Assembly: GCF_017355915.2 (NCBI RefSeq) | Contig: NZ_JAFEUV020000023.1 | Location: 1 to 48,148, forward strand | Origin: Telluribacter roseus | GTDB taxonomy: Bacteria > Bacteroidota > Bacteroidia > Cytophagales > Spirosomataceae | Direction: 5' to 3' | DNA length: 48,148 nt | Part shown: piece by piece, positions 4,415 to 21,281 of the stretch | Layout: the number at the start of each line of letters is the position of its first letter | Numbering within the stretch: position 1 is the stretch's first letter | Notes under the pieces: generated by a model | What the model saw: only the letters and a program-made list of their open reading frames with translations | Databases searched by the model: none | What the model was told of the DNA's origin: nothing | Position numbers and translations under genes: made by a program

Positions 4415-4427
4415 AGATTTATAAATA

Positions 4428-4508: not shown

Positions 4509-4823
4509 ATGCAAAAAACCACATTATCATTTGATCAACTTCCTTGCGCTATCCATCAGATAGGCGAAAGGCTGGACAGCATGGAGCTACTACTGAGCGC
4601 TCTACTGAACGGCACTCAACCCACCGCCACCAAAGCCCCAGATGATTACGTAGGGGTAAAGGATGCCGCGTCAATCCTTAACGTATCACAACAGACAGTT
4701 TACCAGAACATCCGTAAAATACCGCACGTTAAGCGGTTTGGTAAGCTATACTTCAAGCGTTCCGAGCTTATAGCTTACCTAGAAGAAGGGGCCACTCTAA
4801 ATAAGAAAGGAGGTAAGCAATGA
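4509..4823 (+). CDS. Excisionase-like helix-turn-helix protein
   Basis: I chose ATG 4509 (MQKTTLSFDQL), 63 bp inside the longer frame, giving 104 residues. Residues about 44-97 (DDYVGVKDAASILNVSQQTVYQNI...GKLYFKRSELIAYLEEG) form a MerR-like helix-turn-helix/wing of the HTH_17/excisionase type. Such proteins bind the element arms and bias the integrase towards excision, and may also regulate transcription. The stop overlaps the next start by four bases (ATGA), so it is coupled to the 4820 gene and probably co-transcribed with the replication genes. Confidence 0.85.
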   Translation: MQKTTLSFDQLPCAIHQIGERLDSMELLLSALLNGTQPTATKAPDDYVGVKDAASILNVSQQTVYQNIRKIPHVKRFGKLYFKRSELIAYLEEGATLNKKGGKQ

Positions 4824-5122
4824 TGACGCCGAATCACCAACAGCCTACCCCCGAACAAGGACCTAGTAAAGATAAGCATTTTGCCTCACAACTTCATAAG
4901 GTAAACGCTCATTTAAAAATAGCCCCCGCATCCCGCTTCATGGTCGCCGTTGACACCGGCATACCAATTCAAAATGTCTGCCGGTACGTAAAGATGTTAG
5001 CCGATCATAATAACGTAGCCGTTGCCAAGAAAGCTAAATGTAAAATATCAGGCGAATGGGTTGAGTTTCTGACCACCGACCCTACCAAGTTCCCAACCTC
5101 CAACCAAACCTCCCTCTTCTAA
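4820..5122 (+). CDS. Small hypothetical protein of the replication operon
   Basis: The 100-residue soluble protein (KVNAHLKIAPASRFMVAVDTG, NVCRYVKMLADHNNVAVAKKAKC) looks like a small winged-helix or HTH fold: IQNVCRYVKML could be a recognition helix and the KISGEWVEFLTT end a wing. It overlaps the excisionase-like gene by four bases and ends one base before the ATPase gene, so it belongs to the same operon. Function is not known; a regulator or replication accessory factor would fit. Confidence 0.75.
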   Translation: MMTPNHQQPTPEQGPSKDKHFASQLHKVNAHLKIAPASRFMVAVDTGIPIQNVCRYVKMLADHNNVAVAKKAKCKISGEWVEFLTTDPTKFPTSNQTSLF

Positions 5123-5123
5123 T

Positions 5124-6326
5124 ATGGAACTTAGACCTGATTTTAACTTCGACGCTGACGGAATTGGCCAGGCCATTCATCGGGAATCAATTAATCATCA
5201 AGAAGGCTTTACCTCATCATCTCACATATCAAGTGAAGCCCCTGAACAGCAGACACACAATGACGCTGTACTGAAGCTCCTGGAATCGGTAAGAATAGAC
5301 CCATCAGAGCCTCTTGTACCGCCGCCGGTCTGTTTAGAAATGGTTGGCGGAGACTTTACCGCTACGGTAGCCACATTGGGCAATTTCAGTCTAACGATAG
5401 GAAAGGCCAAGAGTAGGAAAACATTTAGTGTATCTATTGCTGTGGCTGCTGCAACCTGTAATGGAACTATGCTTGGTGTGATCCGTGGCAACTTCCCTCC
5501 TGATAAAAGAAAAGTGCTATATTTCGACACAGAGCAGGGTAAGTACCATGTACAGAAGTGTATAAAGCGTATCTGTGAGCTATCAGGGAATTTACAACCT
5601 GACAACCTCCTAGTGTATAGTTTACGCAAGTTTAAACCTGCCGAACGCATGGAGATGATAGGGGCCGCTATCTATAATACCGATGGTGTAGGGCTAGTGG
5701 TCATTGATGGAGTAAGGGACCTGCTAACCTCTATCAATGATGAGGACCAGGCTACAGCTATGGCAAGCAATCTTCTCCGATGGACTGAAGAGCGAGAAAT
5801 ACACATCCTTTGTGTACTACATCAAAACAAGGGAGATAACAACGCCAGAGGGCACATTGGGACAGAGCTGGTGAACAAGGCTGAAACCGTACTATCTGTG
5901 CAAAAGTCCGAAGAGGATAAGGATATTTCAATCGTTCAGGCGGAGTATTGCCGGGATAGAGAGCCGGAGCCTTTTGCCTTCGAAGTGGACGAGTACGGCA
6001 TGCCACGAATTGCGGAGAACTGGCAGATTAGGACCAATAAGAAGCCTAACAGTATTGGTATCGATGAAATAGAAGATTGGCGTCTCTATCAGCTGATGAC
6101 TGATTCTTTCGCGGGGGCAGATAAGCTCTCCTATTCGGATCTTGTCAGAAGGGTTAAACTATCTTTCAAGAGCCAATTCGGAAAGAGTATCGGCGATAAT
6201 AAGACGAAGGATATAGTAGTCTATGCCAAAACCCATGATTGGGTATATCAGGAGAAAGAAAAGGCCCCCTACAAGTTGGGGAGGTTTAATTCTGACACCT
6301 CAGATTCTGCAATAGTCACGGTTTAG
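5124..6326 (+). CDS. RepA-like RecA-fold ATPase (AAA_25 type)
   Basis: The 400-residue protein contains a RecA-fold ATPase core. It has Walker A at residues 93-100 (GKAKSRKT), an EQGK motif after strand 2 (YFDTEQGKYH) and Walker B at 191-196 (LVVIDG). A VLHQNKG-type loop follows at about 232, and AATCNGT/ARGHIGTELVNKAETVL matches the RSF1010-RepA/AAA_25 group. These hexameric ATPases act as replicative helicases or helicase-like loaders on plasmids and integrative elements. It starts one base after the preceding gene and is followed by the iteron cluster and the primase gene. Together they form a self-contained replication module for the excised island. Confidence 0.85.
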   Translation: MELRPDFNFDADGIGQAIHRESINHQEGFTSSSHISSEAPEQQTHNDAVLKLLESVRIDPSEPLVPPPVCLEMVGGDFTATVATLGNFSLTIGKAKSRKTFSVSIAVAAATCNGTMLGVIRGNFPPDKRKVLYFDTEQGKYHVQKCIKRICELSGNLQPDNLLVYSLRKFKPAERMEMIGAAIYNTDGVGLVVIDGVRDLLTSINDEDQATAMASNLLRWTEEREIHILCVLHQNKGDNNARGHIGTELVNKAETVLSVQKSEEDKDISIVQAEYCRDREPEPFAFEVDEYGMPRIAENWQIRTNKKPNSIGIDEIEDWRLYQLMTDSFAGADKLSYSDLVRRVKLSFKSQFGKSIGDNKTKDIVVYAKTHDWVYQEKEKAPYKLGRFNSDTSDSAIVTV

Positions 6327-6407
6327 TTTAACGCCTATACATAGGCGTATAAACTGATAAACCTTGATGTGACATAGGTTTAGTAAACCGGTTTAAACCG
6401 TAAACCG
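6319..6407. other. Candidate replication origin: TAAACCG repeats and palindromes
   Basis: Between the ATPase and primase genes, TAAACCG occurs directly at 6384, 6394 and 6401, and inverted (CGGTTTA) at 6319 and 6389. Overlapping palindromes TAAACCGGTTTA (6384-6395) and CGGTTTAAACCG (6389-6400) result, and a separate dyad ACGCCTAT-AC-ATAGGCGT lies at 6331-6348. Repeats of this kind beside rep/primase genes are typical of origins. An operator for the primase gene is the alternative. Confidence 0.5.
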
Positions 6408-6484
6408 TCTTCCCTCCAAGCTCCCAACCACTATTACTCTTCACGGGTGGAATCGGGTAGTAGATAATCAATAACACTCTTCTA

Positions 6485-7933
6485 ATGGAACCCCAATACC
6501 GATTCAAGTTAAAGCAATACAAGACTCCAAGCGACAGAACAACATGCCCCAGCTGCGGATCTAGACATACCCTTTCACCATACATTGATACGCATACAGA
6601 TGAGCTCCTACCGGATGAGTATGGCCGGTGCAACCGGGAGGCAAATTGCGGCTATCATCTGAATCCGTACAGTGATGGGTACTCCAAGATGATCTACGAG
6701 AAAGAAAGAGGCATGAATGTAGCTTGGACGCCACAAAAGCCCCTTATGGCACCTCGTGCGCCTACGGCTCAGGTTGATATTCCTGCCGATCTATTCAAAG
6801 CCAGCCTCACCGGATTTGAGAAGAATCAATTTATATCCTTTCTCCTGAAACGTTTCCCGGCTGAGGTAGTGAACCAGCTCATTACGGATTACTACATAGG
6901 TGTATCAAGCCGTTGGGAGGGTGCTACAGTCTTTTGGTTTATAAACGCTATAGGCCAGGTAAGGGCGGGGCAGATAAAGCACTTTGATAGTTTAGGTCAT
7001 ACTAGTGAATACATAGACGGAGAGGGGAAGAAAAGGAAGTGTACCACATGGGTCCATAGTGTTTTAAGCTATCGGTTTAAGAAGCAGGGTAAAGCGTTGC
7101 CCGACTGGCTAGAAGCTTACCAGGAGCAAGAAAAGCGGGTTAACTGCCTGTATGGAGAACACCTATTGAAAAGACATCCATCAAGGCCCATCGCATTGTT
7201 TGAAGCGCCAAAGACAGCCATAATTGCTACCCCCTTCTTTCCCGATTATCTATGCCTTGCAACGGGGAGCCTCTCGTATCTTACTAAGGATAGACTGCAA
7301 GCATTGACGGGTAGAAACGTTGTGCTGTTTCCGGATTTGTCTAAGGATGGAAAAGCGTTTGCCGAATGGGTTGAAAAGTCCCGAACGCTTGCTGATATGG
7401 CTAATTTTCGGGTTTCTGACTTGTTAGAAAGGAATGCGACTGATGAGGAACGGGAGAAAGGGCTTGATTTGGCGGATTACCTGGTAAGACTCGACTACCA
7501 TAAATATGTTTCGGCGGAGCCTCCTCAGCCAACTCCTAATAACGTAAGCAGCAGGCCCGAAATAGAGCCACTGGAGCATCGTACAGTGTCAGATGAAGGA
7601 AAGGGTGCCACAACCAATAATAACGCAGCAGAAAGCGATAGAAGCCCCTTTGATAACATACCAGACCCACCCACATCAGCGCAAAGAACAGGTATATCAC
7701 CTTACCCTACCAACTACAATCGAGCTATCATTGCAGATGTACTTGACAACCCGCACAACTACACAACTGGCGAAGCCCTTTATACAATCCTACATAGAGT
7801 GTTTGACAAAGGGGGGATTACTACCCACGCTGTTTATGACTACTACAAAGCTTTAGAGCATCCAGAACCCGAAGCCGCAACCTTTGCCGCGTTAAGGAGC
7901 TTTAAGAAGTGGTGGAATTGGAGGAGTAGGTAA
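6485..7933 (+). CDS. Primase-like protein: zinc finger plus Toprim-like domain (DUF6371 type)
   Basis: The 482-residue protein opens with a CHC2-like zinc-binding motif: Cys21, Cys24, Cys49, Cys55 and His58 (CPSCGS ... GRCNREANCGYH). The middle part has Toprim-like signatures, LFEAPKTAIIA for the conserved Glu and VVLFPDLSKDGKA for the acidic pair. This matches the DUF6371-type proteins of Bacteroidota mobile elements that I remember as primase-like. The C-terminal 100 residues are unlike the rest and may contact the ATPase. It probably primes DNA synthesis at the adjacent repeat cluster, working with the ATPase encoded upstream. Confidence 0.8.
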   Translation: MEPQYRFKLKQYKTPSDRTTCPSCGSRHTLSPYIDTHTDELLPDEYGRCNREANCGYHLNPYSDGYSKMIYEKERGMNVAWTPQKPLMAPRAPTAQVDIPADLFKASLTGFEKNQFISFLLKRFPAEVVNQLITDYYIGVSSRWEGATVFWFINAIGQVRAGQIKHFDSLGHTSEYIDGEGKKRKCTTWVHSVLSYRFKKQGKALPDWLEAYQEQEKRVNCLYGEHLLKRHPSRPIALFEAPKTAIIATPFFPDYLCLATGSLSYLTKDRLQALTGRNVVLFPDLSKDGKAFAEWVEKSRTLADMANFRVSDLLERNATDEEREKGLDLADYLVRLDYHKYVSAEPPQPTPNNVSSRPEIEPLEHRTVSDEGKGATTNNNAAESDRSPFDNIPDPPTSAQRTGISPYPTNYNRAIIADVLDNPHNYTTGEALYTILHRVFDKGGITTHAVYDYYKALEHPEPEAATFAALRSFKKWWNWRSR

Positions 7934-7990
7934 GACTTGATTATTGCATAGTAAGGGTGCAAGTCCAGCTTCCCAAAGTCTTCTTAATTC

Positions 7991-8016
7991 AATGGGAAAT
8001 CAATCCCATTCGTTTT
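7991..8016 (+). terminator. Terminator of the integration/replication operon
   Basis: AATGGGA (7991-7997) pairs with TCCCATT (8004-8010), followed by CGTTTTTT. It closes the rightward run of genes that ends at 7933. Confidence 0.7.
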
Positions 8017-8619
8017 TTACATCTCCCGCTCAATTTTCTCTACAAACCAAGTTAGTATTGAATTAGTAAGGGTCGCATTTGTCTCTTCTCCCCACTTGGG
8101 ATTTAAGTCCTTGTCAACGTCTACAGTTAGTATCTCTTCTTGCTCAAGGGAATAATAAAGTTGTAAATCCTCAGAGAAGCCCATTGTCTCCTTTGTCTTA
8201 TCTGAAATATTGTAATAAACGTCTAGTTCAAATGTATAGTAGCGAATTTCAATTAGATTTTCTTTATGGAGGTACTCAACTGTTATACCACCATGTTCTT
8301 CTTCCTTATTATAAGCTTTCAAGATCAACTCTATTTCAACTTTAAAAGCCTCGCTGGTAATACAAATTGTGTCATTCCACTTTCTATAATCGCCGTCTAT
8401 GTTTCTAAACCTACCTTTAAAGGTAAAATAGTCAATCTTAAAATTTATACCCGACGCCTTCAAGCCCTCAATTCTCTCTTTCAGAAATTTAAATAAGTTA
8501 TCAAATAGTTTGTACTGAAAGCCCTTCTCTTGTAAAAAGGCTTTCCTTTTATCTTCTAGCCCTCTAGCATCAGCAACAGATTTTAGTCTGTTAAACAATT
8601 GGTCACTATTGTTCTCCAT
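8017..8619 (-). CDS. Hypothetical protein
   Basis: The gene lies alone on the minus strand. I chose ATG 8619 (MENNSDQLFNRLK), giving 200 residues; an upstream ATG at 8661 would add 14 residues. The protein is soluble, charged and rich in aromatic residues, for example FKIDYFTFKGRFRN and IEIRYYTFELDVYYNIS. It appears to have a helical start and a beta-rich middle. No known motif was recognised. It is AT-rich compared with the replication genes and may be a separate cargo gene; its stop lies right at the T-run of the convergent terminator. Confidence 0.6.
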   Translation of the reverse strand: MENNSDQLFNRLKSVADARGLEDKRKAFLQEKGFQYKLFDNLFKFLKERIEGLKASGINFKIDYFTFKGRFRNIDGDYRKWNDTICITSEAFKVEIELILKAYNKEEEHGGITVEYLHKENLIEIRYYTFELDVYYNISDKTKETMGFSEDLQLYYSLEQEEILTVDVDKDLNPKWGEETNATLTNSILTWFVEKIEREM

Positions 8620-8941
8620 TCCATTTGATGATAAGTTATAAAACAAGTAAGCTCCTATCAATCTATGATTAATTAATAAATCGCGCTTTATATTGGATAG
8701 ATTAAAGTAGTTAAAAGGTGGTTGTCTTTAATTTATCCTTAATATTATCTTTCAAAAGAGAAGGGCGGTCTAAACTCGTATCCACCCTTACTAAAAGTAG
8801 AAATAACACTATGTGCCCAAACACAATGAGTTTTCTATGAAAATCACGTACAAACAGCACGTTATATTGATTTTTAACAAAGAGTTATTAAAAAGGAGAG
8901 AGCTTTGTAAACATCTCTACTTCCTAAAAAAGCGCTAACCT

Positions 8942-9163
8942 ATGGCCGACTACTGTTCAGAGTGTACCCCATTTGACTATCCAGATATTGACCTGGCACG
9001 GATAGCCCTAGATCTAAGCCCGGGCAGGTCTGAAAGCTTTATCTGTGAAGGCTGTAATAACAGAGCGGTGTATAAAGACGAGGAAGGGCGGCTCTACCTT
9101 GCTAAGCAAGAGCAAGGCCAAGTAAAGCTACACCCTACCACTATTGAGCAGCTAATCAAGTAG
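8942..9163 (+). CDS. Small protein with two CxxC pairs
   Basis: The 73-residue protein has Cys5-x2-Cys8 near the start and Cys35-x2-Cys38 (FICEGCNNRAVYKDEEGRLYLAK). This is the spacing of a zinc ribbon or a small four-cysteine zinc-binding fold. A 280-bp AT-rich region precedes it and presumably carries its promoter. Function is unknown; small zinc-binding proteins of this kind on mobile elements often bind nucleic acid or act as anti-defence or regulatory peptides, but nothing here decides between those. Confidence 0.6.
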   Translation: MADYCSECTPFDYPDIDLARIALDLSPGRSESFICEGCNNRAVYKDEEGRLYLAKQEQGQVKLHPTTIEQLIK

Positions 9164-9221
9164 CGCTTACCTCAGCTGAATATTAGACGACTTTGATACA
9201 AGAGTAGCGCGAGCATTTAGG

Positions 9222-9791
9222 CTACTTTACCAGTTCAGTGATCTTATACTCAAATAATCCAGTAGAGCGTATCTGCTGCGCAATCAAGAGTTGCGCTTTC
9301 CTTAGATCCTCCGTGGTATTTCTTTCAACTCCTTCTATAACGTCAACATTTAGAGCGTTCAAATTGACATTGATTTTAGTTTTATTCTCACCTAGCTTCC
9401 TTACCCTTATACTTGCCACTCCCGTTAGAGAGGTAGGATAGATGCGATCCCCAAATGTCCAAATTGATACAGTTGGCAACACAACTAGAGCGTTAGGGTT
9501 CTCTAATTTCCCTAGTCTATCTTCAAAGGTAAAGTCATTTATCAGTGAACTTCGCTCAGAAACTACAAGTCCATTCTCTTTATCAATGAACCGGATAGGG
9601 AATCCACTTTGAGCTAGTACATCTACTACGTTGTTCCAAACCTCCTCAAAAGGCTTATCAGTAATAACTACATAGGGCTCTTCCAGATGCTTACCCTTTA
9701 ATGCGGTATGCTTAAGCGTAGAAGCTGGAGCACAGCTTTTTAGAACAAAAGCGATAGTAATGACAGATAAAGCTAGTATAGTGCGTCTCAT
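9222..9791 (-). CDS. Predicted lipoprotein of unknown function
   Basis: A type II signal peptide is clear: MRRTILALSVITIAFVLKSC with lipobox LKSC and Cys20 as the lipidated residue. The mature 170-residue part contains DKPFEEVWNNVVDVLAQSG...IRFIDKENGLVVSERSSL, which resembles the fold of small outer-membrane lipoproteins of the BamC/DUF-type. It then has a conserved-looking SIWTFGDRIYPTSLTGVASIRV stretch. The protein should sit in the periplasm or on the outer membrane. It lies downstream of the Ig-repeat gene on the same strand, separated by the long palindrome at 9891-10039. Confidence 0.7.
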   Translation of the reverse strand: MRRTILALSVITIAFVLKSCAPASTLKHTALKGKHLEEPYVVITDKPFEEVWNNVVDVLAQSGFPIRFIDKENGLVVSERSSLINDFTFEDRLGKLENPNALVVLPTVSIWTFGDRIYPTSLTGVASIRVRKLGENKTKINVNLNALNVDVIEGVERNTTEDLRKAQLLIAQQIRSTGLFEYKITELVK

Positions 9792-9890
9792 AGGCTTTTT
9801 CTTTCAAGGTTAATGGATAGCCCCGACTGATGCAAGAAAGTTTATCCTACGGTCTGCCTGCTTTGCATGTAGCATACCCCCCCTATTGTA

Positions 9891-10039
9891 TTTTGACACG
9901 ATGTACGCGAGGCTAAGGCTGCGGTATACGCCCCGACTTCCTTGAACTTTTGATGCCCCCCTGGGGGAGGGGTGGGTGAAATGTCTAAGCCAGTTCCGAT
10001 GTATACCGTAGCCCCATCCCCACGCGTATCGTGTCAAAA
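9891..10039. repeat. 149-bp imperfect palindrome with a G/C-rich core (MITE-like or RNA hairpin)
   Basis: The two ends are near-perfect inverted copies. TTTTGACACGA (9891-9901) matches the complement of 10029-10039. After a 2-base bulge TACGCG pairs, and GGCTGCGGTATAC (9917-9929) matches the complement of about 10002-10014 with one mismatch. The centre has a second hairpin, CCCCC-CT-GGGGG, near 9956-9967. I see no open reading frame and no clear target-site duplication. It lies downstream of the Ig-repeat gene and upstream of the lipoprotein gene. Confidence 0.65.
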
Positions 10040-10173
10040 CTCAGTACCTATTTTTTTAAGTAACCCTTATCTACATAAAAGGGTACTACTAGGATAAGGC
10101 TAGAAGTTCAGTTCCACTTAATGTATACTACCGGGAGTAACCTCATGTTTATTGTAATAAAATTCAGGAGGGG

Positions 10174-12003
10174 TTAGTTTAAAATCACCTTCCGAATACC
10201 ATTGAACAACTTATTCTTAATTTTAACCACATAAACTCCAGATGGCATTCCTTCTAACTGAAATGGTACTACTATACTTTGCTGAGTAGTAGCAACAACC
10301 TGTTTTTGTCCTACTACCTTACCAGATGGATTTACTAACTCTATTTCTATTGGGCCGGAAGTATTGTGAATAGATACTAAGATCTGATCATTTGTTGGAT
10401 TTGGATAAAGTACGATGAAAGTGCTTACAGCCGGATCATTTGAAGTAATGATAAAGCTGTATGCCTCGGACATCGCACTTGCACATCCATCTTGCGTTAC
10501 TTGTACAGTATACAGCCCCGATTGTACTGGTGTAAACTCAGCCGAGGTAGCTCCGGTAATAACAGTACCATCTAAGAACCACTGATTACTCGCAGCAGCG
10601 CTGGATATAAGCTTCATATCCCCACTGGCAGTTATGCTTGGCTTACCAGGCAGAGGTTTGACTACTACTTGTTTGGATTCTGATATAGCCTTACATCCTA
10701 GTGCATCCATTGTCTCGACTGTATAGCTTCCATTACTCTCAGCTTGATAATAATTAATATTAGCTCCTGGAACAGCCGTCCCATTGCGATACCATTGGTA
10801 GCTTGATAAGGATGTGCTGTTGCTTTGAGCCGATAGCTTCACACCTTCTCCCTCACAAATAGTTGTGCTTCCCTCTGCAAGTAGGCTTATCTTGTAAGGT
10901 GGGGCAATCACTATCTCATCTGATATCTTACTACAACCTACACTGTTAGTAGCTTTCACTACATAGGTGCCGCCTTCAGTTACAATTAGATTAGCTGCAC
11001 CTGCATTGGGTATTTGCTGGCCGTTCCTGTACCACTCATAACGGCTAATGGATGAAGAGGCTAAAGCTTTCAGCTCAACCGTTTTACCCTGGCATATTGC
11101 ATTGAAAGTAGGAGGGATAATAGAAACATTTAGAGAAGAATTCAACTGAATATACTGCTCATCTGATCGCTTTGTACACCCGTTAGAATCTTTGACCTGA
11201 ACAGCATAGCTACCAGTCACACTTGCTGTATACGTCCTGGCAGTAGCATTATCGATAAGAGTGCCATTTCTAAACCACTGATAGGTATATCCATCACCAG
11301 TATTTGCCAATAGCTCAACACTTTGCCCCTCACACAATTCCTTAGTACCATTAGCAGTGAAACTGACATCCATCTCACAAGTATTTATGATGAAAGAATG
11401 AATTGCTTCCCTACTTCCACCACAGGCCCTACCAAAGTAAATGCCACGTACAAAGATAGAGCGTTGACCTGTACCTGAGTAAATGTGCTGAGCTTCGGAC
11501 GAATGGCCTGGACCAATATAGCTTTTTCTCATTCCATCGTTCCACCAGACTTCTATTTGATCATATTGTCTGGCAATACTGTCACTAATGAGAGTTACTT
11601 TTACCATACCACCGGCAAGAACACTTACCTGTACATTTGGAGGTGTTGTATCCAATACCTTTACTCCTTTACAAGCAGTAAATCCTCCTCCATTAGCACT
11701 TCCCATTAGCAGGATTGTATAGTACCCTGGCTTTGTATAGGTATAGGTAGTGGATTTAGTAGAAGCCGGATTAAAACCTCCCTGATAGTTAAAAGCCCAA
11801 GTTTGAAGTTTGGGGTCTGAACCTTTAGTAGTATCCCCTACAGTAACTGTTAGTGGAGCACAGCCCACTTCAGGAAACACAGTAAAGCCCCCCCTTTGAG
11901 CTCCATATTCACACAAATCTTGAGCCTTCCCTTCAAATGGCACCAATAGTCCAACTAACAAAGTGATAGCTCCTAAAAGTAATATATCAAAAACAACCTT
12001 CAT
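10174..12003 (-). CDS. Secreted multi-Ig-domain protein with T9SS type A sorting domain
   Basis: I chose ATG 12003 (MKVVFDILLLGAITLLVGLL), which gives a standard signal peptide cut near GKAQ; the open frame extends 15 codons upstream. The order is a PKD-like domain (about residues 30-115), a linking segment, and four Ig-like repeats between about 215 and 530. Each repeat has a W-x-x-(N/D)-G core (WFRNG, WYRNG, WYRNG, WFLDG). The last 75 residues are a type IX secretion/gliding C-terminal sorting domain (VLYPNPTNDQILVSI ... GVYVVKI). The product should be exported by the host T9SS and stay at the surface or be released, probably as an adhesin or binding protein. It is cargo of the island. Confidence 0.88.
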   Translation of the reverse strand: MKVVFDILLLGAITLLVGLLVPFEGKAQDLCEYGAQRGGFTVFPEVGCAPLTVTVGDTTKGSDPKLQTWAFNYQGGFNPASTKSTTYTYTKPGYYTILLMGSANGGGFTACKGVKVLDTTPPNVQVSVLAGGMVKVTLISDSIARQYDQIEVWWNDGMRKSYIGPGHSSEAQHIYSGTGQRSIFVRGIYFGRACGGSREAIHSFIINTCEMDVSFTANGTKELCEGQSVELLANTGDGYTYQWFRNGTLIDNATARTYTASVTGSYAVQVKDSNGCTKRSDEQYIQLNSSLNVSIIPPTFNAICQGKTVELKALASSSISRYEWYRNGQQIPNAGAANLIVTEGGTYVVKATNSVGCSKISDEIVIAPPYKISLLAEGSTTICEGEGVKLSAQSNSTSLSSYQWYRNGTAVPGANINYYQAESNGSYTVETMDALGCKAISESKQVVVKPLPGKPSITASGDMKLISSAAASNQWFLDGTVITGATSAEFTPVQSGLYTVQVTQDGCASAMSEAYSFIITSNDPAVSTFIVLYPNPTNDQILVSIHNTSGPIEIELVNPSGKVVGQKQVVATTQQSIVVPFQLEGMPSGVYVVKIKNKLFNGIRKVILN

Positions 12004-12194
12004 TTTGCTTTTAATGTCAATGGTAGGGGAAAGCACCAAGTGAAGCAAAAAATTTTATCTAACGGTCACTAATACTCAAGGTATCCCGTCTACCGTATGA
12101 AATTACCCTTCCATGTAATGACTTGAAGTTTCATACCCTATCAGTCCGTACTTTGGGCTATCAAAAAAAAGATTGGACGAGGTAGGGTAGGGGC

Positions 12195-12224
12195 TTGGAA
12201 TCTTGAGCGAAACCTTTAGTTTTG
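12195..12224 (+). promoter_or_regulatory. Bacteroidota-type promoter upstream of the structured RNA
   Basis: TAGTTTTG (12217-12224) fits the -7 consensus TAnnTTTG, and TTG at 12195-12197 lies 19 bases upstream, as expected for the -33 element. Transcription should begin around 12230. Confidence 0.55.
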
Positions 12225-12250
12225 TAACGCACAAGAATTCCAAAGGACAT
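12225..12250 (+). repeat. Leader repeat, copy 1
   Basis: TAACGCACAAGAATTCCAAAG followed by GACAT is an imperfect copy of 12414-12439. In both copies the repeat directly follows a -7-like box. Copy 2 leads into a start codon; copy 1 leads into the structured RNA. Confidence 0.65.
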
Positions 12251-12380
12251 AGATTAGCGCTTCCCTATTCTGCAAAGATATAGATGGACGGTGCGTTGAT
12301 CCCGTGCATACGTTGTAATGGCGTAGGCGTACCACCTTTGGAGGTATTGTGCGACGGGCATAGTCAACGCACCGTCTTTT
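12230..12380 (+). ncRNA. Candidate structured RNA with multi-helix junction and terminator-like end
   Basis: GACGGTGCGTTGA (12287-12299) pairs perfectly with TCAACGCACCGTC (12364-12376) over 13 bp, and the 3' strand runs into TTTTTAT. Inside, CCCGT (12301-12305) pairs with ACGGG (12354-12358) and GCA with TGC. Two hairpins then fit: TACG/CGTA (12309-12312 with 12322-12325) and TACC-a-CC/GG-a-GGTA (12330-12346). This gives a closing stem with a branched head. It has its own promoter and no sensible reading frame. I do not recognise an RNA family. A long terminator or a leader of the next gene are alternatives. Confidence 0.6.
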
Positions 12381-12382
12381 TA

Positions 12383-12412
12383 TTTGGCTATTCTGGTGAA
12401 TAGATATATTGT
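12383..12412 (+). promoter_or_regulatory. Second promoter, for the 12437 gene
   Basis: TTTG (12383-12386) and TATATTGT (12405-12412), 18 bases apart, resemble the -33 and -7 elements. The leader that follows (12414-12436) is a repeat of the leader of the structured RNA, so promoter and leader appear to have been duplicated together. Confidence 0.45.
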
Positions 12413-12413
12413 T

Positions 12414-12439
12414 TAACGCACAAACAATCCAAAGCAATG
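12414..12439 (+). repeat. Leader repeat, copy 2, running into the start codon
   Basis: TAACGCACAAACAATCCAAAG then CAATG; the final ATG is the start of the 12437 gene. The heptamer AACGCAC inside it (12415-12421) is the complement of GTGCGTT (12292-12298) in the closing stem of the upstream RNA, so the two could pair. Confidence 0.6.
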
Positions 12440-12727
12440 TCAAGCAACAAGCCCTCATTACCCCCACAGGGAGTACTATCTCCCGTCGCCTCCAATCCTG
12501 ATGCAGTTCAGGCGCTTATCAACGAGTACTTCAGCTACTCCGGCAGTTCTCAAATGACTGAGGAAGGACTATGGCAAATGTTCTCCGGTTGTATTTCTAA
12601 TTCAGACACTCCAACGGACGCCACGCAGAACGCGAATCTTGCCTTCGTCTACCGGCAGCTCCTAGACCTTATTAAGAGCTTGGAGCCGTACTACGTCAAC
12701 AAGCGTTTGTGCCTGCCTAGTAACTAG
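12437..12727 (+). CDS. Small hypothetical protein downstream of the RNA locus
   Basis: The 96-residue soluble protein has a Pro/Ser-rich start, a central ALINEYFSYSGSSQMTEEGLWQMFSGC segment and a helical end (LAFVYRQLLDLIKSLEPYYVNKRLC). No known domain was recognised. The start ATG sits at the end of the leader repeat. It is followed after about 90 bp by the second recombinase-like gene in the same direction, so the two may be co-transcribed. Both could be controlled by pairing between the upstream RNA and the leader. Confidence 0.6.
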   Translation: MSSNKPSLPPQGVLSPVASNPDAVQALINEYFSYSGSSQMTEEGLWQMFSGCISNSDTPTDATQNANLAFVYRQLLDLIKSLEPYYVNKRLCLPSN

Positions 12728-12814
12728 TCATCGCCTACTTCTTATTATCATTTTATCCCATCATTCACTTTGCTGGAGCGGGTCTACTATGCCCAGCCGA
12801 AACTACTTATTGTT

Positions 12815-14212
12815 ATGAATACCAATATAAAATCACCAATCAAGCTGCTTTTTTGGAAACTAGAGGGAGATGTAACCCTACGTATAACCATAGACGGTGT
12901 AGTTGCCAATATGAAGATACCTAAAAACCTCCGAGATCAGATTAGCTACATGCACGGGCTCAACTGGATGGGAGGTAAGGAGCTCTACCAGGGGCCGGGA
13001 GCTATGAAGATCAACGCGGCGCTATGGGAGATGAAACAGGGCGCAAAAGTCGCCTATGGGACGCTTAACGGCTACGGCGTTAGTCCATCATCCAAGATGG
13101 TAAAAGAGTTCTACAGAGGGCTTGAAAAGGGGCTTTATAGCGACGATTCCAAGGGAGTAGCCAAGTATCTAAAGCAGGGGCGACTTGTAGGAGGTAAACG
13201 TGCTCTTATTGACCTTTTGAAGTGGTACAAGGATAACTCTGTAAGGCTGGAGCCTGGCACAAAGAGCACCCGGCAAACCTACATCAATAACATTGAGAAG
13301 TTTCTGGCGACCGTCGGCAAGCCTGAGTTACCCGCTGACAGTTTCAATAGAGCTATGATGAAGCGTTTTGTTGACTGGATGAGAAATAAGGGGAAAAAGC
13401 CTTTAAAGGACTCGTACATTAATGAGAATATAGTATTCATCAAGTCAGCAATGAAAGAAGGCTATGACCGCGAGTTCATACACGAAAACCTTATAGCTAA
13501 CTTTGCCTTTAAGTTCACCCGCGACGTACATACTGATCACCTGACAATAGATCAACTTCAATGGTTGCGGTCTACTGACTTCACCAAGCCTACGGGATTC
13601 ATGCCGGGGGTTGAGGAGCCATTAGAGCCGCTGAAAGGCCCGGCTGTTCCCTGTTACGGAGAGAAAATGCAGGTAGTGGTGGATCTGATGATACTATGCT
13701 GTTACACAGCCTTCCATTATTGTGACCGGGAAGGGCTACAGGATGAACACTACTCCTTCTGGAGGAACAACTACTGGATAGAGAAAGTACGGCGCAAGAC
13801 CAAGCGGCATAAGGCTAAAGCAATGATAAAGCTACGTCCGGAAGCAATAGCGATTATTGAGAAGTACGGCGGGTTGTCTAATCTGCCTCGGCTCCCCTAC
13901 CGGACGAATGCCAACTACCTAATCAAGCTCGGTCAACTAATGGGGCTGCCTTACACACTTACCACAGGGATAGGGCGCAATACCTTTGCCTATCAATGCC
14001 TGAATATCTGGGGCCACTCCCTAGGAGTTACGGCTACTATGATGGGGTTAAAGTCCGTTAACACCATCTGTAAGTATGCCGAGGTAGAGAAGGAAGGGGT
14101 TGATAGGGAGGTTAATTATGAGAACGTAGGGCTGTATTCTGGCCCCCAGGTTGTACAGCAATGCAAGCCCGTTGTACATGGGATTTTCAGGGTTTTCAGG
14201 ACAGGCGCTTAA
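12815..14212 (+). CDS. Divergent tyrosine recombinase-like protein lacking both catalytic histidines
   Basis: I chose ATG 12815 (MNTNIKSPIKLLFW), giving 465 residues; the frame is open further upstream. A SAM-like core-binding domain (TRQTYINNIEKFLATVG ... INENIVFIKSAMKEG) is followed by a catalytic-type domain. CCYTAFHYCDREGL corresponds to the Arg-I box of Bacteroidota integrases, RRKTKRHKAKAMIKL to the Lys box, GRNTFAY to the HxxR box and MGLKSVNTICKYAEV to the LGH/Tyr box. Arg, Lys and Tyr are present, but the His of HxxR and of LGH are Gly and Leu. It may be an impaired or specialised recombinase, or a DNA-binding protein derived from one. It converges on the tape-measure gene. Confidence 0.75.
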   Translation: MNTNIKSPIKLLFWKLEGDVTLRITIDGVVANMKIPKNLRDQISYMHGLNWMGGKELYQGPGAMKINAALWEMKQGAKVAYGTLNGYGVSPSSKMVKEFYRGLEKGLYSDDSKGVAKYLKQGRLVGGKRALIDLLKWYKDNSVRLEPGTKSTRQTYINNIEKFLATVGKPELPADSFNRAMMKRFVDWMRNKGKKPLKDSYINENIVFIKSAMKEGYDREFIHENLIANFAFKFTRDVHTDHLTIDQLQWLRSTDFTKPTGFMPGVEEPLEPLKGPAVPCYGEKMQVVVDLMILCCYTAFHYCDREGLQDEHYSFWRNNYWIEKVRRKTKRHKAKAMIKLRPEAIAIIEKYGGLSNLPRLPYRTNANYLIKLGQLMGLPYTLTTGIGRNTFAYQCLNIWGHSLGVTATMMGLKSVNTICKYAEVEKEGVDREVNYENVGLYSGPQVVQQCKPVVHGIFRVFRTGA

Positions 14213-14236: not shown

Positions 14237-14268
14237 AAGGGGCAGAAGTTCTTAACCTCTGCCCCTTT
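14237..14268. terminator. Bidirectional terminator between the recombinase-like and tape-measure genes
   Basis: AAGGGGCAGA (14237-14246) and TCTGCCCCTT (14258-14267) form a perfect 10-bp stem, with T-rich sequence after it (TTTGTTTC). It separates two convergent genes. Confidence 0.7.
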
Positions 14269-14318: not shown

Positions 14319-16664
14319 TCAGCCGATGGCCGCTTTTGTGCGCCTGGTTCTATTGAGTACTATCTCCAGGTCAGAGCCTGAGATACGGGTAGTCAGCTCG
14401 CCTATACCATCCCCACCTTTGCTATATTTTCTAATGGACTCCCTCAGCGACCTATCCACCTTGCTATAAGGGGCAATTATCTCATTATCAAATCGGGCAT
14501 TAGGGTTATCTCCTACCCTGGCTAACATCTCGGAGCCAACCATACCACCCTCAGCGAAAGCGGGAACGTTCATTTTGGAGTTAATACTTTGCTGCACATT
14601 AGCTTTCAGGGCGGCACCTAGGGCAACGAGTCCCACCCCAGCTACAACAGCTGTTATGGGATCTTTTATAATAGATTGCAGGGCTTTTCCTGCCGTACCA
14701 AAGGCAATCATAGATTTACCTATTTGAGTAGCAAGATCGCCGAGTATAGAGCCAAACATACGGGGCAGGTCGGCCAAAGAAGAAACACCGGCAATCATAC
14801 CGCCGATCCATTCGCCCATGCCTACTGCCATGCTGTATTTGGCGTTATCCCAAGCACGGGTAATGTCAGCGTTGAGGCTGGCAACTCTGCCTACTTGCTT
14901 CTCATACACGTCTACCGCTTGTTTTATTCCTGGTAGGTTGCTGGCGGTGCTCATCATTGAATCAGCGCGTCCTTGAAGTTTGCCTAATTCCGGTGCTCCG
15001 AAATTCATCTGCATACCCTTCAACCGCTCTACGTTCAGTCCGGCCACTACCCCGAATAGCTTCTTATACTCGCTTATAACGCCCTTCAATGCCTCCTGCT
15101 CTTTGTGCCACTCCATCGCCTGGTTAATCTTCTTCATTTCCTTCTGAGCGGACGACACGAACTCCATAGCTTTACCCAGATCCTCTACCCCCTCGCTAGC
15201 AGACTTACCTACCGAACCTCCGCTGTCACCCACTGGCGCGCTGAGAGCCTTCGTTATCTCCTTGAACTCTTTCATGGAGTCGGGTACAGTAAATTTGATA
15301 CTCTTCGCTAGTTTATCAACTCCGTCAATAGCTTTCCCTACACCGTCGGCAAGAGCATCAAAACCTATGGCTCTATTGAAGGTAGCGAACATCCCGAGGG
15401 TAGCGCGAATAAAGCCGCTAAGAGTATCTATCATTAGGTTAGCCGCTGACTTGAGCGTATTAGCTAGGGATTGACCAAAGGCTTTCCAGTCCCCTTTAAT
15501 TAGGTTCGTAACAGTGCCAAATAAGCCCGTCAGGACGCCAAGCGCACTCTTAGCGATGCTTTTCATTGAGTCCCAGGCTCCGGAGCTTACAAGGGCTTTT
15601 TTAACGCTATCCCAATGATAGATGATAGCGGCGACGGCTACTCCTATTGCGGCTCCTACGGCTAGCACCGGCGCACTAATCAGACCTAGCCCGGTTGTTA
15701 GTAGAGGAACCATCTTAACCACAGCGCCAAGTCCTGCCAATAGCGGACCCGCAGCAGCGGCCACCCCGCCCAAGACAAAGATAGTCTTTTGTGTTTCGGG
15801 GCTTAAGCCTTTGAATTTTGAAGTAAGGCTCTCCATACTCTCGGCTATACTGTTAATGATGCCGCTGATGTTAAAGGACTTTTCCAGGCTCTCTCCAAAA
15901 GATGCCATAGAGAATTGTGCGGAATCCTTTATCTTCTCCAGCGCCATACCCGCACCCCCGGCGACCGGAGGAATCTTTTCGAGTTCAGCTACTAATCCTT
16001 CCACCACCTTCGTAGCTCCTATCTTCGTGAGCTCTGCGCCCTCGGCGGTGCCAAAAGCATCAATAAGCGCCTTCCTGACTTGTGGAATACGGTTCGCCAT
16101 TTCCTTTACATCGGCGGCAGATACCGTATTGGTACTGATCATTTGTTGTACGTTGGCGAGAGCGGGGTTTAGGTCGGTGGATGACTTACCCGCAGCCGTT
16201 AATGCGTTGGCAAAGGCTTTGATGGTCTTCTGTGCTTTGTCAGATGCCATTTCTACCGAACGCAGCGCTAGAAGTGAAGAGGCAGCACCTTCAATGCTGA
16301 TGTTAGGAAGTTGCGCTAACTTCTTAACCGTTTCCAAAGATTCGCCGTACTGGTTTAAGCCTATTTGTAGCTTTTCCAGGTTGGCGAACTCTTTGTAAGC
16401 CTGGCCCGATCCGAAGATCATAGGCAGGGTAGCAAAAGCGGACATTTTAGCTCCTATTCCTTGAATGTCATCGCCAAGCCTACCAAGCCCGGCTTTGAAC
16501 ACCTTGGCTTCGTTATCGGCTCTACGGAAGGAATCGGTTAGTTGGGAGTTGACTTGTACGGTAAGCGTACTGATTTGAGCGGAGACTTGAGAAATACCCC
16601 GTAAGAAGCCTGATATATCGGCTCCTAGTCGGATATTAGCAGCTCCAACACCGGCTGCAGACAT
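14319..16664 (-). CDS. Phage tail tape-measure protein, isolated
   Basis: The 781-residue protein has the tape-measure N-terminal domain (about residues 60-280; AYKEFANLEKLQIGLNQYGES, DVKEMANRIPQVRKAL). A long hydrophobic Gly/Ala-rich block (about 292-350) follows, then a helical coiled-coil-like centre. The end carries a second hydrophobic segment (TAVVAGVGLVALGAAL) and the typical FAEGGMVG...VGDNPNARFDNEII. In tailed phages this protein sets tail length and is ejected with the DNA; at about 1.5 angstrom per residue it would span roughly 117 nm. The frame is intact. No tail tube, chaperone, baseplate, capsid or terminase gene is nearby, which is unusual: in phages it lies within a tail operon. 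Confidence 0.9.
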   Translation of the reverse strand: MSAAGVGAANIRLGADISGFLRGISQVSAQISTLTVQVNSQLTDSFRRADNEAKVFKAGLGRLGDDIQGIGAKMSAFATLPMIFGSGQAYKEFANLEKLQIGLNQYGESLETVKKLAQLPNISIEGAASSLLALRSVEMASDKAQKTIKAFANALTAAGKSSTDLNPALANVQQMISTNTVSAADVKEMANRIPQVRKALIDAFGTAEGAELTKIGATKVVEGLVAELEKIPPVAGGAGMALEKIKDSAQFSMASFGESLEKSFNISGIINSIAESMESLTSKFKGLSPETQKTIFVLGGVAAAAGPLLAGLGAVVKMVPLLTTGLGLISAPVLAVGAAIGVAVAAIIYHWDSVKKALVSSGAWDSMKSIAKSALGVLTGLFGTVTNLIKGDWKAFGQSLANTLKSAANLMIDTLSGFIRATLGMFATFNRAIGFDALADGVGKAIDGVDKLAKSIKFTVPDSMKEFKEITKALSAPVGDSGGSVGKSASEGVEDLGKAMEFVSSAQKEMKKINQAMEWHKEQEALKGVISEYKKLFGVVAGLNVERLKGMQMNFGAPELGKLQGRADSMMSTASNLPGIKQAVDVYEKQVGRVASLNADITRAWDNAKYSMAVGMGEWIGGMIAGVSSLADLPRMFGSILGDLATQIGKSMIAFGTAGKALQSIIKDPITAVVAGVGLVALGAALKANVQQSINSKMNVPAFAEGGMVGSEMLARVGDNPNARFDNEIIAPYSKVDRSLRESIRKYSKGGDGIGELTTRISGSDLEIVLNRTRRTKAAIG

Positions 16665-16746
16665 GGCTAGTAGATTTAATCTTTCAGAGGGCTAATAGTG
16701 GGCCGAAACCCATAGGGGAAGATACAAAATTTTACCTCAGTTTCCT

Positions 16747-16787
16747 AATAATCGTAGATAAATTATCTACTAAGTGCTATGATTATT
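16747..16787. promoter_or_regulatory. Nested dyad in the divergent promoter region of the tape-measure gene
   Basis: GTAGATAA-A-TTATCTAC (16754-16770) is a perfect 8-bp inverted repeat. It is itself flanked by AATAATC (16747-16753) and its complement GATTATT (16781-16787). It lies between the leftward tape-measure gene and the rightward 16833 gene, so a repressor bound here could control both. Confidence 0.5.
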
Positions 16788-16832
16788 AGATGTTTTTTAT
16801 TATATTGTAGGTATACACCTGCAGCACCAGAA

Positions 16833-17090
16833 ATGACGAATACACCCAAAAAACAGTCAGAACTTAAGGAGCTAAACCTACTCCTGGTTATACGTGAAAT
16901 GGGGCTTGAAGAGCTAGTAGCCCGCTACATTCATTCACAGACCGGACATAGGGTAGAAGTAGCAGACCTCCCGGATGAAGTGTTTAGCGCTGTGATAACT
17001 CTAAGGGAGGCTATACAGCGAAACCAGCCTGAAAGCGTGGATCTGTGGGAAGAGATGCTAGATAAGCTTATAGATACAGACGAGTACTAA
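16833..17090 (+). CDS. Small hypothetical protein, divergent from the tape-measure gene
   Basis: I chose ATG 16833 (MTNTPKKQSELKELN) rather than the first Met 54 bp upstream, which would lie close to the dyad. The 85-residue product is acidic and helical (LLLVIREMGLEELVARYIHSQTG, EEMLDKLIDTDEY). It has no signal peptide and no recognised domain. It leads a small rightward operon with the nuclease and the MqsA-like gene. Confidence 0.6.
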   Translation: MTNTPKKQSELKELNLLLVIREMGLEELVARYIHSQTGHRVEVADLPDEVFSAVITLREAIQRNQPESVDLWEEMLDKLIDTDEY

Positions 17091-17127: not shown

Positions 17128-17631
17128 CTGACACCCTCCATCTACCTACCTCGGCTCAATGCTCTGAAAGAAGAGTATAACGCAGCCAAATATCCCCACG
17201 TAGCCCAGACTAGAGGCTTCTACGCCAAGAAATACAAGGATACCTCAGCCAATGCCCTGACGGCCGCAATAGTGGCTTATCTGACCCTTACCGGCGGCTA
17301 CGCTACCCGTCAGCAATCGATGGGAGTAAAGCGCAAAGTAAAAGGCCGGGAGATATGGACACCAGGCACAACCAAACGGGGCGCAGCTGACATTAACGCG
17401 ATGTTTCAGGGCAGATCCTTACAGGTAGAGGTAAAGTACGGGAAAGACCGCCTGAGCGATAAGCAGAAAGCCACAACTGCCCAGATTGCCCGGGCCGGTG
17501 GAGTGTACCTGGTGGCTAAGTCCTTTGATCACTTCATAGAACAGTTTCAGAAGGCGTTCGCCCTGGCTGATAATGAGCTATTCGTGTTGCGCTGCCCTAT
17601 CGAAGAGGAGGAGGCAAAACTGAGTTTTTAG
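17128..17631 (+). CDS. VRR-NUC-like PD-(D/E)xK nuclease with unclear start codon
   Basis: The C-terminal part holds the nuclease core: KRGAADINAMFQGRSLQVEVKYGKDRLSDKQ contains the D...EVK triad and the following S-x-x-Q typical of VRR-NUC/Holliday-junction-type nucleases. The first usable ATG/GTG is GTG 17272, but the frame is open back to 17122, and the upstream residues look coding (YLPRLNALKEEYNAAKYPHV, GFYAKKYKD). CTG 17128 (LTPSIYLPRL) would give 168 residues. Either a rare CTG start is used, or an ATG was lost by mutation. Phage relatives act in DNA recombination or packaging; the role here is unknown. Confidence 0.7.
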   Translation: MTPSIYLPRLNALKEEYNAAKYPHVAQTRGFYAKKYKDTSANALTAAIVAYLTLTGGYATRQQSMGVKRKVKGREIWTPGTTKRGAADINAMFQGRSLQVEVKYGKDRLSDKQKATTAQIARAGGVYLVAKSFDHFIEQFQKAFALADNELFVLRCPIEEEEAKLSF

Positions 17632-18055: not shown

Positions 18056-18907
18056 ATGAACCCTATACAGAAGAAAGCAAAGGAGATATTAAAGGCTAAG
18101 GAGCAAGCAAAAAGGAAGCAGGACGAGCGGAAACAGGTACTAGAGCAGAAATACATTGCCGAACAGCTCAGAAAGCGAACTAAAGAGTTCGAAGAAGCTT
18201 TTTCATCCGTTTTGCCTTTACTAAGGGAGGGCGGCATAAGCTATAAGCTGTTCTTCAAGACGCCACCAATAGCTAGCAACGGATTTTATGTAACCTTTGT
18301 AGGTAATGAGCGTTCTGTCAAGATGGATTTTAGGGATAAAGAGCGGTATCGTTTTGAGTTTACACCTCATGTTACTGCACTTGAGCTGCTTGAGGCAAAG
18401 AGTGCCTATAGTAATTATCCAGCGGAAGATTTGGTGCTCTATTTATCTAAGGAGCTGTTTGAGAATGAATCTCTTCTTCCATCTTCTACAACTTCAAAGC
18501 AGAAAGAGACGGATTGGGACTTCATAAGGGCTTTATGTCCTGAATTTAACAATTCAACTGATCTTGAGCAACTTCGAGACTCCCTAGAGCTTATTATAAG
18601 CGTATCACAGCAAAAGCAGATTAATGAAGAAGACCGCTTGCACAAGTTCTGGCAAGAGACTTTTGAGAAGGACCCGCATAAGCTAACTCTATACTTCATT
18701 ACAACCTTCTACAAGACTCACCTTGCTTCGATCAAAAATCTACTAGAGCGCCAAAGCATAGCACTTACACTGGATGCCCCTGATTTACTTAAGCTGCTGA
18801 TCGAGTGCCGGGATTCACTTGGGGTAATCCTTAGCCCAGGTAGCTCTGAGAAGGATTTTGAGCTATTCAACAGGCTGAGTTTGACGATTAAGAAGCATAC
18901 TTCCTAG
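18056..18907 (+). CDS. Hypothetical protein with N-terminal coiled coil
   Basis: The first 50 of 283 residues are Lys/Glu/Gln-rich and predicted to form a charged helix or coiled coil (KKAKEILKAKEQAKRKQDER). The rest is soluble, with a beta-like middle (FYVTFVGNERSVKMDFRDKERYRF) and a helical end. There is no signal peptide and no known motif. It stands alone after the terminator at 17905 and is followed by a convergent gene on the minus strand. Function unknown. Confidence 0.6.
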   Translation: MNPIQKKAKEILKAKEQAKRKQDERKQVLEQKYIAEQLRKRTKEFEEAFSSVLPLLREGGISYKLFFKTPPIASNGFYVTFVGNERSVKMDFRDKERYRFEFTPHVTALELLEAKSAYSNYPAEDLVLYLSKELFENESLLPSSTTSKQKETDWDFIRALCPEFNNSTDLEQLRDSLELIISVSQQKQINEEDRLHKFWQETFEKDPHKLTLYFITTFYKTHLASIKNLLERQSIALTLDAPDLLKLLIECRDSLGVILSPGSSEKDFELFNRLSLTIKKHTS

Positions 18908-20231: not shown

Positions 20232-21104
20232 CTACTCTGCCTGGAAAGCCTCAAAATCAAGTTGTAAGACCGAGGTAGCCGGATTGAAATGAACCGCCCT
20301 CAGTCTATCCCTTACCTGCTGAGGCAGATTTGTAAAGAATCTTGCGCCTGTTACCTTCTCTATATCCTCTGGTGTAGTGATAAAGTCTGTCCACTTCTTG
20401 TTGTCTACCAGCCCCTGCCGGTTCGGCATATCTACCGCAATGACAGGGGTATTAGCGCTAACCTGCTCAATGCCTCCTCCCCCAGGAATAGCCACTATAA
20501 CCTTATAGTTGTGTAGAGATACATTAATGCCATTGCGAATAGTGGTTGCTGTCCCTGCGCTACCTTCTCCGCCTGTCCCATAAGTACCGGCTATTATGTA
20601 AAGCCGATAATCTTTCTGTGCTAAACTTCGGCAGAACTCCTCCAGCTGCGCCCATGACTCCCTATTTAGCGCCGGAGCTTGGGGAATAATGTTTGTCATC
20701 AGGAAGGTTGCTGCATTAGCCTCATCAGAGCTTGTACGGTCTGCCGAAGGGCAAAGGTGGCCCCTGTCGAAGCCGCTGCCTGTATAGTCGCTTGTTACGG
20801 CCTTATACCATCCACCTGGCAATGCTGGATCAGGCCGGAAATTATCTTGCCGGTCACTACTACCTAGCCACTCCTTAGACAGCTCCCAGGCCACCCAATT
20901 CGCATGCCTCTTCGTCCGGTTGTAAGAAATCGCAAATTCTTCCTTCAACATCAAAAAATTTTCAGCAGAAGTAGTGTCAGCCTTCGCATTTGTGGGGTTG
21001 CCTAAGCTTAAATGTATACTCTCAGCAATGGGCGTAGGTGCTGTTGTTTCTTTACATCCTGCCGTAATCCACAGCAGCAGAATAATGCTTAAATACCTCC
21101 TCAT
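20232..21104 (-). CDS. DNA/RNA non-specific endonuclease, predicted lipoprotein
   Basis: I chose ATG 21104 (MRRYLSIILLLWITAGC), giving 290 residues and a lipobox ITAGC; a GTG at 21131 is the upstream alternative. The domain is of the NUC1/NucA-type beta-beta-alpha-metal nucleases. The motif DRGHLCPSADRT contains the catalytic His, and TNIIPQAPALNRESWAQLE has the metal-binding Asn and the conserved W. As a lipoprotein it should sit in the periplasm or on the outer membrane, where such enzymes degrade incoming or environmental DNA and RNA. It is the last gene of the island before the att repeat. Confidence 0.88.
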   Translation of the reverse strand: MRRYLSIILLLWITAGCKETTAPTPIAESIHLSLGNPTNAKADTTSAENFLMLKEEFAISYNRTKRHANWVAWELSKEWLGSSDRQDNFRPDPALPGGWYKAVTSDYTGSGFDRGHLCPSADRTSSDEANAATFLMTNIIPQAPALNRESWAQLEEFCRSLAQKDYRLYIIAGTYGTGGEGSAGTATTIRNGINVSLHNYKVIVAIPGGGGIEQVSANTPVIAVDMPNRQGLVDNKKWTDFITTPEDIEKVTGARFFTNLPQQVRDRLRAVHFNPATSVLQLDFEAFQAE

Positions 21105-21132
21105 AACACGCTTATTTGAGCTTATAACCACC

Positions 21133-21206: not shown

Positions 21207-21252
21207 GTGATCCCGACACGATTCGAACGTGTGACCGTCTGCTTAGAAGGCA
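21207..21252 (-). repeat. Right 46-bp attachment-site repeat, within tRNA-Arg
   Basis: Identical to 1811-1856. It covers the tRNA from its 3' end to the anticodon stem. The crossover must have taken place inside this segment, so the 3' part of the present tRNA was supplied by the island. Confidence 0.93.
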
Positions 21253-21281
21253 GATGCTCTATCCAGCTGAGCTACGGGACC
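21208..21281 (-). tRNA. tRNA-Arg (anticodon TCT)
   Basis: Read on the minus strand the 74-nt sequence folds as a cloverleaf. The acceptor arm GGTCCCG pairs with CGGGATC. The D-arm is GCTC...GAGC, and the anticodon arm TCTGC-CTTCTAA-GCAGA carries anticodon TCT. The T-arm is ACACG-TTCGAAT-CGTGT. CCA is not encoded. It is the integration target of the island. Confidence 0.95.

Follow-up and report, generated by a model that had tools for sequence, protein, structure and literature searches.

Phage satellites were known earlier to rewire capsids and packaging. The small terminase subunit (TerS) is encoded by a packaging gene of known satellites and is a feature of the phage-inducible chromosomal islands (PICIs), and the capsid-forming PICIs (cf-PICIs) make their own capsids from their own capsid, portal and terminase genes. 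In the phage-inducible chromosomal island-like elements (PLEs) of Vibrio cholerae, the satellite's own tape-measure protein (TMP) is reported to enter the satellite virions, the phage TMP is excluded and chimeric tails are formed; without tmp, transduction falls by 96 to 99.9% (PMC12987554, 2026). Putative tmp genes are also named for PLE-like elements and cf-PICIs in the legend to Extended Data Fig. 10 of that paper. Here we describe an intact TMP gene, the one head or tail gene recognised in a 19.4-kb island of Telluribacter roseus, located on contig NZ_JAFEUV020000023.1; the whole stretch of 48,148 nucleotides that was analysed is called the window. Our best explanation, which we consider probable, is that the island is a satellite-like integrative element carried in the particles of a tailed helper phage, whose TMP it replaces with its own, giving chimeric tails.

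Like a PLE, the island would be an integrated satellite with its own TMP; the other tail proteins would come from the helper. It differs from the PLEs in phylum and backbone, in that no tail-assembly chaperone is recognised in the window, and in the many unrelated TMPs captured. Two related islands, L053 and L019 (loci are numbered L, genomes G and contigs C), probably have a partner chaperone beside the TMP, as described for the PLEs. Whereas the PLE helper ICP1 is a contractile phage, the helper here is probably one with HK97-type genes, since the nearest TMP lies in a prophage with head genes of that type. With the PICIs and the Staphylococcus aureus pathogenicity islands (SaPIs), the island described here shares a size of 10–20 kb, an integrase and replication genes, and 7 of the 15 islands of this kind also share TerS; a TMP stands in place of capsid-remodelling genes. 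To our knowledge, the primase family of PICIs and SaPIs is unrelated to the DUF6371 primase of this island. Unlike cf-PICIs, the island has no capsid gene (no capsid, portal or terminase gene was recognised in the window with Pfam and PHROGs); some of them are said to have putative tmp genes as well. The phage-inducible chromosomal minimalist islands (PICMIs) are also small satellites without capsid-remodelling genes, but they are described from Vibrionaceae, and the abstract mentions no TMP (PMC10803314). The Tai inhibitors (PMC11364771) and an assembly-inhibition protein (PMC10884400) are also encoded by mobile elements and target the assembly of tails or virions; they are presented as inhibitors, whereas the island has a TMP. 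A satellite that acts on the tail had been put forward in the sequence-only reading of this DNA as a new mode, a claim that the PLE work of 2026 has overtaken (PMC12987554). Searches of open-licence PubMed Central papers for satellites of Bacteroidota, for satellites with tape-measure genes and for DUF6371 listed no title or abstract that describes these elements, and tail-pirating satellites of Bacteroidota with a TMP as sole or main structural gene are not described in the papers so listed; PMC12324425 is unrelated.

The reading frame of the gene (781 codons) is uninterrupted, as had been claimed, and its product is confirmed as a tail tape-measure protein by profile matches. TIGR02675 (tape_meas_nterm) scored 31.9 bits, above its cut-off of 21.35; PF20155 (TMP_3) scored 40.7 bits (E = 2.7e-10), marginally under its cut-off of 41; and nine of ten PHROG matches carry the name tail length tape measure protein, eight of these at E <= 1.1e-7. 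The terminator-like hairpin 3' of the gene and the nested dyad 5' of it, which the sequence-only reading had pointed out, are both present (Table 1). That reading was also right that no other phage structural gene is recognisable among the window proteins scanned: nine other proteins searched with PHROGs, and those scanned with Pfam and NCBIfam, gave no second head or tail gene, and the Hoc-like and tail family matches of a 624-aa Ig/PKD protein arise from its Ig repeats alone. Five small open reading frames (ORFs; at 8942, 9810, 12216, 18942 and 19413; 73–144 aa) lay outside these three scans, ORF 18942 being scanned with PADLOC only. With one intact structural gene recognised, the window lacks the marks of a prophage remnant, namely several structural genes or broken frames.

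The island is flanked by exact 46-bp repeats of a tRNA-Arg gene, which bears out the proposed tRNA-bounded element, and it combines an integrase, its own replication genes and att repeats, a general feature of phage satellites; another such feature, the lack of a complete set of structural genes, also holds among the proteins scanned. The predicted integrase stood (PF00589), and replication is represented by genes for an AAA_25 protein and a DUF6371 primase, but the match of the predicted excisionase remained under the curated cut-off. In a genome of the same genus (G001), a single copy of the tRNA end is present in 20 kb, and 72 columns across the left repeat align at 86%; the DNA beyond this alignment differs, and G001 as a possible empty site lends weak support to insertion.

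The same architecture recurs elsewhere. A direct TMP search of 99 genomes (its own and relatives) gave matches in 11 including its own; no relative appeared in viral contigs, phages or plasmids, and those found came from the whole-genome search. The surroundings in seven of the ten other genomes are a tail operon with shared neighbours, and in three (L019, L021, L027) they repeat that of the window: integrase, replication genes with a DUF6371-type primase, and TMP, with no other tail relatives by BLAST. DUF6371 is present in 83 of 390 genomes of the order, and 74 of its places were fetched (omitting places already included, two that lie at the end of a contig, and the bottom of the list, where scores are weaker or frames are long or fragmentary). 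Among these regions the TMP profile found L028, L053 and L085, and most have no recognised TMP. L091 was added by the Pfam census and ORF list, and L102, L111, L133 and L183 by primase scans of the best 80 of 202 viral-contig loci and the best 80 of at least 582 named-genome-contig loci, in which L246 repeats L019 and L197 repeats L053. The gene set for which a search of tRNA-bounded islands had been suggested thus recurs: counting the window, 12 distinct loci have both DUF6371 primase and TMP. A TMP is also present in L275, L276 and L277, which are similar islands with no DUF6371 match on the same stretch; this gives 15 islands in total. The L277 and L085 TMPs are 100% identical over 1370 residues, and the L276 TMP is truncated by the contig end. 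Named islands lie in Spirosoma panaciterrae DSM 21099, Spirosoma endophyticum DSM 26130 and Xanthocytophaga flavus YF14B1.

The cleanest case is L091, which spans 13.5 kb at a tRNA-Val gene and is flanked by 50-bp repeats. Besides small genes, it encodes an integrase, a 360-aa unknown protein, an HTH protein, an AAA_25 ATPase, the primase and a TMP of 1545 aa (PF20155, 78.1 bits). L085 has 48-bp repeats at a tRNA-Arg gene, 36 kb apart, and L021 a 15-bp repeat of a tRNA-Leu end 20 kb off; the same repeat search, which covered the window, these three islands and L027, L028, L053 and L183, found no convincing repeat for the last four. No sister island examined has a full set of tail and head genes at the TMP position, which the sequence-only reading had named as a sign of prophage decay. 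The satellite acting on the tail that it proposed is the best-supported reading, given the recurrent islands, three more of them with tRNA-end repeats, and TerS.

Of the 390 genomes, 33 hold both families, and primase and TMP genes lie no more than 15 kb apart at seven TMP places (six if the window is left out), where 0.35 would be expected; the expectation assumes independent positions, uses manually entered per-genome counts and includes the window as the starting point. In 14 islands, the 10 kb around the TMP hold 0–3 ORFs related to ORFs of other TMP loci, which were taken as prophages; the window has three, namely the genes of the excisionase-like and the recombinase-like protein and one beyond the island border. 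As controls served 20 TMP loci distant from DUF6371, hand-picked from the TMP census rather than random: 15 share at least five neighbours, and the other five share 0, 0, 2, 2 and 3. Controls L282 and L294 share nothing with the others, and L282 by eye resembles a full phage region. Two further loci look as if their TMP were nearly lone: L301 (2606–11130, G337:C1), with a MuA-like transposase (phrog_310, E = 3.7e-33), a TMP, one tail-like 160-aa gene and no head genes recognised, is perhaps a transposable satellite, and L278 (2766–11077, G125:C18) encodes an integrase and a TMP of 540 aa, with no structural neighbours shared.

TerS is encoded near the TMP in seven islands: L019 (PF03592, E = 3.4e-32), L275 (PF03592, E = 4.0e-30), L021 (phrog_83, E = 6.3e-7), L102 (phrog_51, E = 1.1e-37), L053 (E = 9.8e-25), L183 (E = 7.3e-35) and L276 (E = 2.2e-19). 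It also occurs without a TMP in the DUF6371 islands L032, L038, L073 and, with an internal stop, L041. L053 further encodes an HNH protein and two proteins homologous (hhalign 97.6 and 98.3) to those encoded directly ahead of the prophage TMP, the expected place of chaperones; L019 has one weaker match of this kind (hhalign 66); 'chaperone' here denotes this gene position in prophages and not a family match. Ten window ORFs compared by hhalign with six TerS, three chaperone-position and other prophage proteins gave no match, and thus no tail-assembly chaperone was found in the window by this method, though the TMP is present.

In a tree of 41 TMPs (14 from islands, 27 others; 709 columns, L282 left out), island and other TMPs are mixed, with at least ten label changes, eight of them forced by well-supported branches. 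The non-island rows were not individually confirmed as full prophages, L278 and L301 among them looking nearly lone. Shuffled labels needed 11.9 changes on average, and 81 of 500 shuffles needed as few, which indicates that island TMPs are hardly clustered; their scatter reflects repeated capture. Islands also exchange the gene: L019 and L021 are 95% identical in primase/helicase and 93% in DUF6371 but just 31% in TMP, and L019 and L275 are 89% identical in a 284-aa protein and 75% in TerS but just 28% in TMP. With divergent TMPs on near-identical backbones, the TMP behaves as an exchangeable module. The window TMP is, with full support, sister to that of L300 (G290:C9); 318 of 762 aligned residues are identical (42%), with 155 of 240 over residues 61–300. 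Unlike the island, L300 is by BLAST relatives a complete prophage, with terminases, portal, protease, capsid, connectors and tail tube and, following the TMP, a large protein. Its TMP has 778 residues, near the length of the window TMP, which suggests replacement without a change of length. The earlier idea of particles with a chosen tail length is not supported by this, nor by the range of island TMPs (604–1545 aa), which resembles that of the others (551–1664 aa). Shortening as a rule was also considered and rejected: L053 (604 aa against 901 aa in its sister L018) fits it, and the window does not.

Table 1. Features of the island in the window (positions of the whole stretch)
Feature	Position	Strand	Evidence or remark
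Left att repeat	1811–1856	.	46-bp copy of the tRNA-Arg 3' part; identical to 21207–21252
Tyrosine integrase	2019–3407	+	PF00589 E = 2.7e-22; PF13102
316-aa protein, no family match	3464–4414	+	Position after integrase
Excisionase-like HTH protein	4446–4823	+	TIGR01764 22.3 bits, under curated cut-off 28.8
AAA_25 ATPase (RepA-like)	5124–6326	+	PF13481 E = 1.9e-13
DUF6371 primase with zinc ribbon	6485–7933	+	PF19898 E = 7.3e-46; PF21957
Ig/PKD surface protein, 624 aa, with secretion-system sorting domain	10174–12048	-	PF19081; PF18962
Second tyrosine-recombinase-like gene	12770–14212	+	PF13102 E = 3.3e-8; phrog_1 E = 3.2e-12
Terminator-like hairpin between convergent recombinase and TMP genes	14237–14267	.	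14-nt arms (14237–14250, 14254–14267), 93% complementary
Tape-measure protein, 781 aa	14319–16664	-	TIGR02675; PF20155; PHROG profiles
Nested dyads 5' of TMP gene, putatively operator-like	16745–16789	.	Arms 16745–16757/16777–16789 and 16754–16761/16763–16770
Small helical protein, divergent from TMP	16779–17090	+	No tail-assembly chaperone or TerS recognised
VRR-NUC-like nuclease, start unsure	17272–17631	+	phrog_93 E = 8.9e-8
283-aa protein	18056–18907	+	No match in libraries scanned
Non-specific DNA/RNA endonuclease	20232–21131	-	PF01223 E = 5.1e-55
tRNA-Arg(tct)	21207–21281	-	Contains right att repeat 21207–21252

Among the other genes of the island (Table 1), the Ig/PKD protein and the endonuclease are probably cargo; relatives of the latter occur in the DUF6371 regions L044 (53%) and L072 (47%). 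The slot after the integrase holds genes for 316–381 aa also in L027, L028, L091 and L102, a likeness of position only, and the excisionase-like protein has BLAST relatives in 28 of 84 other loci compared. Single-sequence structure modelling of 85 residues of the small helical protein (pLDDT 73) gave no fold match at E <= 0.001, and a model of the protein at 12437–12727 reached pLDDT 50. Read from 17143, the VRR-NUC-like frame matches PF08774 with 21.2 bits, under the cut-off of 23.8. A second island nested around the recombinase-like gene was considered and rejected: the sole further repeat is an AT-rich, chance-like 18-nt sequence with one mismatch (10217 and 19771). Directly outside the left repeat lies a serine resolvase (PF00239, 279–800), perhaps part of another mobile element. 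The host genome has two further DUF6371 elements, L033 (G000:C10) and L043 (G000:C3), without a TMP by profile.

According to the mechanism that we propose, the island integrates at tRNA-Arg and would replicate by means of its own integrase and ATPase/primase module; on induction by a helper, it would be packaged and travel in the particles of this tailed phage. The island TMP would be built into the helper tail instead of the helper's own, carrying, by analogy with the PLEs, helper tube proteins on the helper tail tip, and the other tail, head and packaging proteins would be supplied by the helper. Replacement of the TMP may help the island to evade factors directed against TMPs, may favour its own particles or may change the way in which DNA enters. 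We tentatively suggest, as something possible but far from assured, a Bacteroidota satellite lineage specialised on the tail, several of whose members (the window and L091 among them) seem to do without a chaperone, and in which the repeatedly captured and swapped TMP fits the element to its helper or, since TMPs also take part in DNA entry, to an entry block of the host.

Several observations weigh against this picture. No TerS was recognised in the window with PHROGs, PF03592 and PF05119 profiles or hhalign, nor, with part of the ORFs scanned, in L027, L028, L085, L091, L111, L133 and L277; it should be noted that the hhalign alignment also missed the L021 TerS detected by PHROGs, so a divergent TerS in the window is possible. 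The window TMP stands apart from the backbone, on the strand opposite to the primase module, as in L183, whereas in L021 and L091 it lies downstream of the primase on the same strand. In the host genome no other TMP was found, and PF03354 terminase and PF03592 or PF05119 TerS gave no match there; no resident helper of that type is therefore seen, and the helper would be external or of another type. Four of the 15 islands hold one further terminase, head or virion gene, contrary to a pure pattern. In two DUF6371 regions (G313, G299) a relaxase lies some 10 kb or less from the primase, which indicates that this backbone is not confined to satellites and serves other life styles too.

These points leave room for other explanations. 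If the TMP were a decoy, binding up the chaperones, tube or tail-tip proteins of phages that enter the cell, the tails of these phages would fail, the host population would be protected and the protein would not be needed in island particles. The window and L091, as islands in which no TerS was recognised, would agree with this, but we consider it rather unlikely: none of the known inhibitors described is a full-length TMP, a complete TMP that is repeatedly exchanged as a whole better suits a working structural part, TerS beside the TMP points to packaging, and ten window proteins gave no match in PADLOC. An integrative element that spreads through conjugation or in some other way, and whose TMP is a passenger or was left stranded when a satellite life ended, would agree with the two relaxase-bearing regions, with the lack of a recognised TMP in most of the 74 DUF6371 regions and with the large cargo genes of the window. 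We judge it unlikely, because co-location is far above the estimate, the TMP frames are intact, and a search of 65 genomes found no PF03432 relaxase close to the primase of their TMP islands (L183, L102, L111 and L133 lie outside this set). The sole match in the host genome is on contig C21 and not on C23, that is, absent from the island.

A prophage remnant that has lost its other structural genes seems very unlikely. It could draw on the additional virion-type genes, namely a terminase large subunit match in L133 (IMGVR_UViG_3300039305_000015, 3810–12640, with primase and TMP, neither portal nor capsid being recognised), an HK97-type head protease close to an integrase in L276 (G137:C42, 1–6600, with TMP and TerS and no other head genes seen) and a virion structural protein match in L085 and its near-copy L277, and on the five control loci that likewise share few genes with prophage loci; L019 also has a weak, short baseplate/endolysin match adjoining the TMP. 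However, the TMP frames are intact, the integrase-replication backbone is common to the islands, the 0–3 shared prophage neighbours contrast with five or more in most controls, and many independent decays that leave the same single gene are improbable.

Taken together, our results favour a satellite-like element that pirates the tail of its helper by means of its own TMP. This would be the PLE tactic on a different backbone and in another phylum, with capture and exchange of the TMP, and the named Spirosoma and Xanthocytophaga islands make the idea testable; if it is true, tail piracy would be a general strategy.
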